Shown here in pieces: positions 10,754-51,192 of a stretch of DNA of 64,000 nucleotides (position 1 is the stretch's first letter; the number at the start of each line of letters is the position of its first letter). The stretch comes from Collibacillus ludicampi (lineage in GTDB: Bacteria; Bacillota; Bacilli; Tumebacillales; BOQE01): NCBI RefSeq assembly GCF_023705585.1, contig NZ_BOQE01000001.1:588501-652500 (forward strand), written 5' to 3'. The translations under genes were made by a program, and so were the position numbers. The notes beneath the pieces were generated by a model, which saw only the letters and a program-made list of their open reading frames with translations, was not told where the DNA came from and ran no database searches.

Positions 10754-10897
10754 AAAAAAGTGTAGATTGGTGGGCGTATGCTTTGCGTTCGCGCTCCGTG
10801 GAGGTCGTCTCGCATGGAACAATGATCAAATGTCGCGAGACAACCTCCAAAGTCGCTGTCTCACGCAAAGCATTACGCCCATCTAAAGACACTTTTC
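10754..10897. repeat. Palindromic repeat R1 (module A)
   Basis: Imperfect inverted repeat of about 144 bases immediately upstream of proB. The outer arms are GGTGGGCGTATGCTTTGCG and its near-complement CGCAAAGCATTACGCCC; the inner arms are GGAGGTCGTCTCGCA and GCGAGACAACCTCC, around a loop TGGAACAATGATCAAAT. Homology with other copies continues about 30 bases to the right (TCTGATGGC, GCTTGCGGTATGG), so the true boundary is uncertain. Confidence 0.9.
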
Positions 10898-10942: not shown

Positions 10943-11190
10943 ACTTGTGCTTGGGTGGGTATATCGCTTTGCGCTTGGGTTCGATGAAGGTCGTCTTTGA
11001 GGCATATGCTTTGCGCTCATGCTCCGTGGAGGCCGTCTCGCACGGAATATGATCAATGTTGCGAGACGACCTTCAAGGTCGCTATTACGCGCAAAGCATA
11101 TGGCCCTCTTGAATGGTTTAAGGAAGCGGAACGACCCTCATCTCACCTCTGCGCTGCAAAGCGATACAACCCACCCAAAAGCCACTCTGT
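10943..11190. repeat. Nested palindromic repeat R2 (module A inside module B)
   Basis: The outer module B has arms at its two ends, TTGGGTGGGTATATCGC and GCGATACAACCCACCCAA. The complete module A (11001-11105) is embedded between them, with ATATGCTTTGCGC and GCGCAAAGCATAT and the core CGTCTCGCA/TGCGAGACG. Both modules recur elsewhere in the window, in the same nested order at 29.85 kb and inverted as a unit at 33.3 kb. No ORF in it is credible. Confidence 0.92.
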
Positions 11191-29011: not shown

Positions 29012-29108
29012 AAAAAAACGCCTGAGCATGCGCCCAGGCGGTCGGCATTCACTGATCACACTCCCCTGTGGTAACCCACTTCCGCCAGTCATGTGATCTG
29101 TCAATCTT
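29012..29108 (-). promoter_or_regulatory. ZTP (pfl) riboswitch upstream of folD
   Basis: The minus strand shows the conserved pfl-motif elements in order: ACTGGCG, GTGGGTTACCAC, GGGGAG and, after a short linker, GCCGACCGCCTGGGC. The last element overlaps the 5' arm of a terminator (CGCCTGGGC / GCTCAGGCG then seven T, 29012-29040). This is the known architecture in which ZMP/ZTP binding to the 3' hairpin prevents terminator formation. folD is one of the classical targets of this class. A second CCGCCTGGGCATG lies just after the terminator, near the ribosome site. Confidence 0.94.
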
Positions 29109-29798: not shown

Positions 29799-30185
29799 AG
29801 GGCATATGCTTTGCGTTCATGCTCCGTGGAGGTTGCGAGACGACCTTGAAGACTAGTGCTTGGGTGGGTGTATCGCTTTGCGCTTGGGTTCTTTAGGCCA
29901 TATGCTTTGCGCTCATGCTCCGTGAAGGCCGTCTCGCACGGAATCATTAATCAAATGTTGCGAGACGACCTTCAAGGTCGCTATTACGCGCAAAGCATAT
30001 GGCCTCTTGATCGATTTAAGGAAGCGGAACGACCTTCAACTCACCTCTGCGCCGCAAAGCGATACAACCCACCCAAAAGCCACTCCGTTGAAGATGGCAG
30101 TTTTAAATCCTTCTTCTTGCACAAGAAACTTGAGACATGAGTGGCAACTTTCAAAGTCGCTGTTTCACACAAAGCATATGCCCCA
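29799..30185. repeat. Triple-nested palindromic repeat R3 (A-B-A) between leuC and leuD
   Basis: Three concentric palindromes. The outermost is a worn module A: GGGCATATGCTTTGCG at 29800 and CAAAGCATATGCCCC ending at 30184. Inside it is module B (TTGGGTGGGTGTATCGC near 29860, GCGATACAACCCACCCAA near 30075). Innermost is a good module A (29896-30003; GGCCATATGCTTTGCGC and GCGCAAAGCATATGGCC). The loop is CGGAATCATTAATCAAATGT. Further A-like fragments follow to about 30240, touching the end of leuC. Confidence 0.9.
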
Positions 30186-33303: not shown

Positions 33304-33556
33304 CAAGAAACGGAGTGGCTTTTGGGTGGGTTGTATCGCTTTGCGGCGAAGAGGTGAGTTGAAGGTCGTTCCGCTTCCTTAAACCGCTCAAGAGGCCATA
33401 TGCTTTGCGCGTAATAGCGACCTTGAAGGTCGTCTCGCAACATTTGATTAATGATTCCATGCGAGACGACCTTCAAGGTCGCTATTACGCGCAAAGCATA
33501 TGGCCTAAAGAACCCAAGCGCAAAGCGATACACCCACCCAAGCACTAGTTTTCAAG
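33304..33556. repeat. Nested palindromic repeat R4 with a perfect 47-bp inverted repeat
   Basis: Same A-in-B arrangement as R2 and R3 but inverted as a unit. Module B arms are CTTTTGGGTGGGTTGTATCGC and its partner GCGATACACCCACCCAAG. The inner module A has arms 33393-33439 and 33460-33506 that are exact reverse complements over 47 bases, with a 20-base loop. Each arm contains its own small palindrome CGACCTT-G-AAGGTCG. Homology to A flanks continues to the left to about 33250 (CATCAGAAGATGAAAAG). Confidence 0.95.
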
Positions 33557-50706: not shown

Positions 50707-50984
50707 CAGAGGATGAATACTTTCTTGAAAATCTGTAGTTTGGCGGGCGTATGCTTTGCGTTCGCGCTCCGTGAAGGTCGTCATTGCGGGCATATGCTTG
50801 GCGTTCATGCTCCGTGGAGGTCGTCTCGCTTGGAATAAGTTTAGTTGTTGCGAGACGACCTCCAAAGTCGCTGTTTCACGCCAAGCATATGCTCCTTTAA
50901 CATTCCAATGGAAGCGAGACGATCTCCAAAGTCGCTGTCTCACGCAAAGCATTACGCCCACCAAAAGACACTTTTCATCCTCTG
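50707..50984. repeat. Nested palindromic repeat R5 (module A inside module A)
   Basis: The outer arms begin CAGAGGATGAA (50707) and end TTCATCCTCTG (50984), with GGCGGGCGTATGCTTTGCG / CGCAAAGCATTACGCCC. A second complete module A (50787-50895) sits inside. In this inner copy the arm reads GCTTGGCG and its partner CGCCAAGC, where all other copies have GCTTTGCG / CGCAAAGC, so both arms changed together and pairing is kept. Confidence 0.92.
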
Positions 50985-51037
50985 AGGGCGCGGCTTGATG
51001 CATAGTTAGCTTTCTTGTATACTTCTGTGGTTGCCAC

Positions 51038-51192
51038 AAGAAACTGAGTAGCTTTTGGGTGGGTTGTATCGCTTTGCAGCGCAGAGGTGAGTTGAAGGTC
51101 GTTCCGCAAAGTCTGGTAAGAATCCGAGCGGAACGACCTTCATCGAACCCAAGCGCAAAGCGATACACCTACCCAAGCACTATTTCTCAAAG
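51038..51192. repeat. Palindromic repeat R6 (module B alone)
   Basis: A single module B, without an inner A. Arms are CTTTTGGGTGGGTTGTATCGC and its partner GCGATACACCTACCCAAG; the inner core is GAAGGTCGTTCCGC / GCGGAACGACCTTC with a 16-base loop. It shows that B is an independent unit and that A insertion is optional. It ends 30 bases before the mnmA stop. Confidence 0.92.

Follow-up and report, generated by a model that had tools for sequence, protein, structure and literature searches.

The R5 repeat of Collibacillus ludicampi consists of one hairpin, of a subfamily that we call G, sitting inside another, and the matched T-A to G-C change in its two inner arms was inherited with the inner G unit. 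The change was met in a window, that is, the whole stretch of 64,000 nucleotides analysed, and is here followed through at least 148 hairpins of the same genome and into a distant relative. We favour, with confidence that is about evenly balanced, a reading in which the R5 family consists of mobile, self-nesting DNA hairpins whose pairing is preserved as they are copied, arm-templated correction being a rare addition. Units of different subfamilies would enter one another's apex with fixed polarity, giving mirror-matched shells; a folded single strand, probably on the lagging strand, would be the form that is copied or inserted, so that pairing is kept; occasional arm-templated correction would add to the pairing; and copies, once inserted, would decay freely. 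Both the insertion step and the enzyme that mobilises the units are inferred. When the two arms of a hairpin change in step, this is usually read as proof of a functional RNA; here such changes occur in dispersed, nesting DNA hairpins, with arm copying visible at two loci and with mismatches at the tips of the tree that are strand-neutral. The copies, at least 148 together with eight distant ones, are thus material to separate inheritance, arm-templated correction and selection, and the family points to a putative mobilising system.

R5 and the origin of its matched change

The letters bear out the matched change reported by the first-pass annotation: the inner shell reads GCTTGGCG (at 50796) and CGCCAAGC (50879-50886), against GCTTTGCG (at 50753) and CGCAAAGC (50943-50950) in the outer shell. 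The inner hairpin occupies 50788-50894 of the window, between the outer arms given in table 1; its arms, 50790-50804 and 50878-50892, are complementary at 15 of 15 positions, and folding of R5 is far stronger than that of shuffled sequence on both strands (z -10.9 on the + strand, z -12.5 on the - strand).

Table 1. Components of R5 and further members of its family in the window (position 1 is the first letter of the window).
Feature	Position	Strand	Basis
Composite element left end (CTTGAAAA...GTAGTTTGG type)	50722..50742	+	Consensus of 42 left flanks
Outer shell left arm, type K, GCTTTGCG	50743..50782	+	Direct repeat D2; shell pairing
Inner shell left arm, type G, GCTTGGCG, site of the matched change	50786..50829	+	Repeat and shell pairing
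Apical loop, 20 nt, fast-evolving	50830..50849	+	11.3 changes per column vs 3.2 in stems
Inner shell right arm, type G, CGCCAAGC, site of the matched change	50850..50894	+	Repeat and shell pairing
Spacer, inner to outer right arm	50895..50913	+	
Outer shell right arm, type K, CGCAAAGC	50914..50958	+	Direct repeat D1; shell pairing
Composite element right end (CACTTTTCATCCTCTGA...)	50959..50999	+	Flank consensus; motif match G000:C1:639470
Single-shell type T hairpin adjoining R5, opposite orientation	51057..51175	-	
Single-shell K hairpin, R5 family	10772..10879	+	
Inner hairpin within T shell, R5 family	11000..11105	+	
Inner hairpin within T shell, R5 family	29896..30004	+	
Hairpin with left arm copied from the right, loop flipped with respect to the enclosing T shell	33394..33505	-	Matches on both strands

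The accompanying statement that all other copies of the module read GCTTTGCG holds inside the window but not genome-wide, where 33 of 148 loci carry a TTG arm, the type of GCTTGGCG. Typed left arms across the genome are TTT in 136 cases, ATT in 40 and TTG in 26; right arms are TTT in 124, ATT in 32 and TTG in 27. While those 33 loci have the GG/CC variant in some arm, 16 have it in both arms of one shell. Over the 148 innermost hairpins, the pair that differs in R5 is TA in 120, GC in 12, TC in 7, GA in 4, CA in 3 and TG in 2, and the branches on which both of its members were substituted number zero on the full tree and three on a tree of unpaired sites only. The idea that the change arose in R5 itself must therefore be given up: with both arms of one shell affected at 16 loci and no double-substitution branch on the full tree, it characterises a subfamily, and R5 has it because an entire G-subfamily hairpin, bearing the variant on both arms, sits inside another hairpin. 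R5 alone cannot tell whether the double change beats chance and, so taken, is compatible with two independent substitutions that happened to pair. That reading is refuted by the shared subfamily state, the same pair being found at 16 loci in both arms of a single shell; genome-wide, moreover, paired doubles lay above the null in 300 of 300 simulations, and we hold mere coincidence to be extremely improbable.

Family size, anatomy and nested shells

A covariance model (R1) from an alignment of 46 inner hairpins recovered at least 148 distinct innermost hairpins among 150 scored matches in the bacterium's own genome (G000, 4.09 Mb), a lower bound given the 150 candidates scored; all 148 were examined with their flanks. 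They are placed intergenically and all sit on contig C1, the six small contigs C2-C7 (about 99 kb) holding none of the 148 listed. Of 14 genomes sampled in the order, R1 matches G000 and, weakly, G004, and the hairpin family is present in 2 of 299 genomes of a class sample. A DNA query with the repeat matched none of 40 relatives; an 18-mer pattern scan of genome contigs gave only ten matches, attributable to chance and in unrelated taxa; and no relative of the repeat was returned from plasmids and phages (DNA and protein searches) or from one viral scan. Against Rfam 15, repeats of the family are without a match above the gathering score, and the window's only matches, a T-box leader (1484-1702, - strand) and a ZMP/ZTP riboswitch (29025-29102, - strand), lie away from the repeats. 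A limited collection of the literature yielded no account of the family, nor of bacterial nested shells with mirror-matched arms.

Each unit, about 107 nt long, is built of a stem, an asymmetric internal loop with conserved unpaired motifs, a second stem and a loop of about 20 nt, and the arms form chains, about 43 nt on the left and 64 nt, spacer included, on the right. Columns of the internal loop (3.75 and 4.91 changes per column) are nearly as slow as those of the stems (3.17), against 11.3 in the apical loop, and GCTCCG and AAGTCGCT are almost fixed. The ends of the elements are conserved as well, with TGAAAA on the left and TTTTCA / TTTTCATCCTCTGATGG on the right. In the left-flank consensus of K shells GTAG stands 5 nt off the stem, whereas T shells have AGTGCTTGGG, without GTAG. 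As the register differs between subfamilies, a loose octamer table was left unused. The hairpins at L177 (about 1326-1385), L163 and L164 are without the second stem and loop and have a short stem closed at the internal loop; they are deletion derivatives. In the very diverged copy L157 (G000:C1:3519176-3519282) the outer stem is different and both stems show matched changes along their length; it is a promising candidate for a template switch of several bases.

Nesting is seen in how the arms of different shells correspond. At two-shell loci, stem pairing of inner with inner and outer with outer arms beat crossed pairing in 38 of 38 cases (mean 13.6 vs 10.0; local alignment). At multi-shell loci, typed arms matched in 72 of the 83 pairs taken from one shell and in 28 of the 90 taken from neighbouring shells (p 3e-14); thus, arms agreeing more often within shells than between neighbours, matched arms move together as whole hairpins. 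Shell order varies, G lying in S in K at L030 and S in G at L099, L053, L054 and L072. At 97 of the 148 loci, left and right arms are equally many and an outer T shell is either present on both sides or absent from both. At 51 the arm numbers are unequal, which counts against the nesting explanation and means that arms also multiply singly. The locus L055 has, around 980-1420, two right arms facing five left arms, of which four are near-identical tandem copies; there, left arms multiply by themselves. Mosaic hairpins, with arms from two subfamilies (e.g. L025, L029, L035 and L051), indicate in turn that arms are also exchanged.

The relative in G004, which belongs to another taxonomic family, differs in its stems and keeps the fold and the unpaired motifs. 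R1 gives its hairpin 45.6 bits, and in G004 this hairpin is part of a repeat with 14 DNA matches, the distant set comprising eight copies. Conversely, R2, a model for which four G004 hairpins alone were used, has 76 matches in G000, which by inspection are R1 sites on the same strand, and matches nothing in the order's 12 other genomes. A joint alignment of 16 hairpins, itself fitted to the structure, has 97.1% of its cells paired and changes on both sides in 16 of 22 pairs; the covariation score of this structure-fitted alignment is 0.657, against 0.194 when shuffled and at most 0.19 with slid partners. The unpaired GCTC and CAAA[GC]TCGC are kept in most of its rows.

Maintenance of pairing and strand orientation

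From the pairing preserved in R5, the first-pass annotation had proposed that the hairpin is maintained and that covariation be sought among the genomic copies. Maintenance is upheld, with covariation across the family above the tree null, shuffles and slid partners, and an excess over descent is seen under a home-made tree null, used in place of R-scape. For this null, each column's inferred substitutions were re-placed on branches 300 times, in proportion to the load that the other columns carry, and branches changed on both sides with a standard pair kept were counted. It covers 146 of the 148 hairpins, two arm-conversion hairpins being dropped, and 27 of 32 pairs, positions 2-6 being left out; these look broken in the column table of K-type hairpins, an effect of a one-base bulge. 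The test took plain MAFFT columns, an alignment-fitted pair table being set aside as biased towards pairing. Paired double substitutions fell on 13 branches of the full tree (null mean 2.0, maximum 6 in 300 runs) and on 37 branches of the tree of unpaired sites (null mean 4.6, maximum 12), and paired cells stood at 96.9% in the tree-null test, against 90.0% and 83.5%. The 46-copy alignment gave a covariation score of 0.146, against 0.058 or less for slid partners, and shuffles agree. Recombination between copies can mimic covariation, disturbs the tree and weakens any tree-based test. Terminal branches carry 8 paired doubles against 109 pair-breaking or wobble changes; thus, single copies mostly decay.

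Matched changes of this kind could be made by arm-templated correction alone (template switching or gene conversion within the hairpin), with no structural selection. The mechanism is a published one (excerpt of PMC8794818), and whole-arm copying is visible in 2 of 148 hairpins, in opposite directions: the palindrome at 33394-33505 of the window is a direct trace of arm conversion or inversion, and L151 (G000:C1:2711472-2711576) is the converse case, its right arm being a copy of the left with one base missing. In two K hairpins (L024 at 2583586, and L098), in addition, the left arm has its one-base bulge filled so that it matches the right. Yet almost every copy retains the non-complementary internal loop, and, with this loop intact elsewhere, whole-arm conversion cannot be the general cause. 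Correction alone is also insufficient given that the unpaired motifs recur in another taxonomic family despite changed stems, and the preponderance of unmatched private changes, 109 to 8, implies that correction is slow. Conversion between arms, which the first-pass annotation had offered as one cause of the preserved pairing, thus exists at two loci and falls short as a general cause; that correction did everything seems to us rather unlikely.

The orientation of the elements tracks replication better than genes. The dnaA gene lies at 1,487,474, and the GC skew of sampled stretches flips sign near there and near 3.6 Mb. Relative to these landmarks 105 of 148 elements lie in the lagging sense, or 100 of 140 loci after neighbours are merged (p 4e-7). 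Where flanking genes converge or diverge, the lagging sense outnumbers the other by 37 to 13, and a joint fit of orientation gives z -3.55 for replichore and z -1.35 for gene strand, with simple open frames serving as gene calls in this test. Among tandem genes running against replication the count is 7 to 7, a small sample in which the bias is absent. The bias could also stem from unequal loss.

These data bear on selection for a transcribed RNA, a terminator-like or regulatory hairpin, as the agent that keeps the pairs. The strong RNA folding of R5 on both strands, the intergenic placement and the conserved unpaired motifs would suit such a role, and internal branches carry, by subtraction, 4 G-T against 14 A-C mismatches, which could hint that the RNA of the other strand is selected. 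On terminal branches, however, G-T and A-C mismatches number 37 and 38, without the strand preference expected from one strand's RNA, and private changes mostly break pairs, so that the wobble test leaves RNA-level selection unsupported. Orientation, too, fits replication better than genes, and the lack of an Rfam match at the repeats and their number, at least 148 copies in one genome, speak against this reading as well. We judge this explanation improbable.

Mobility and comparison with known systems

A mobiliser was sought in several ways. The search for a Y1 HUH transposase (PF01797) gave no match in G000 and was positive in 5 of 14 control genomes. An autonomous parent was sought by the right-end motif, and all 99 matches fell at R5-family elements, 82 of them within 450 bases of a hairpin and the other 17 at T-type elements; L177, one of these 17, holds a truncated inner hairpin. 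A reverse transcriptase was considered as mobiliser and rejected, its two matches being pieces in a group II intron region, a stretch holding no R5-family hairpin. At L182 (G000:C1:1737300-1742300), group II intron pieces have two partial reverse-transcriptase frames that lie near each other. Going beyond the mobile, self-nesting hairpins favoured above, we tentatively raise the possibility of a new class of mobile hairpin, whose units would insert, always in one polarity, at the apex of others of their kind and so form concentric matched shells. Its mobile form would be a folded single strand, recognised via the conserved unpaired motifs of the internal loop by a non-Y1 enzyme, and the same system, with different stems, would operate in a second family of the order.

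Several known systems invite comparison. The hallmarks of MITEs are a target-site duplication and a parent transposon with the same ends. Like them, the R5 family is short, non-coding and dispersed, with inverted ends (TGAAAA left, TTTTCA right); the right-end motif led to no parent transposon, and no target duplication was seen by eye in the flanks listed. REP sequences are palindromes of 20-50 nt with a GT[AG]G tetranucleotide at the foot, mobilised by TnpA-REP (RAYT). The R5 family likewise consists, as do REP, BIME and REPIN, of high-copy intergenic palindromes; yet its units measure about 107 nt and nest as mirror-matched shells, the searched genome holds no Y1 transposase match, and GTAG stands near K shells only, in palindromes longer than REP. 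The family thus resembles REP-type systems in outline and departs from them in the features by which they are defined. In E. coli REP, an unpaired bulge in the stem is required for activity, according to an excerpt of PMC8266576, and related single-strand transposition and its transposases act on the lagging strand, as stated in an excerpt of PMC6006769.

Template switching that corrects hairpin stems was described for RNA genes by Monttinen and Loytynoja (excerpt of PMC8794818). As laid out in that excerpt, it accounts, as would be needed here, for paired double changes in a single event; the R5 arms, however, are part of a dispersed family of DNA hairpins, few of which, 2 of 148, show a whole arm copied. 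In architecture, the pneumococcal BOX element (boxA-boxB(n)-boxC) is likewise a composite repeat of outer modules with a variable number of inner modules; its inner tandem array is predicted, in the excerpted account of PMC3049150, to pair little with the outer modules, whereas in the R5 family, compared with that account by architecture, an added left arm usually has a matching right arm.
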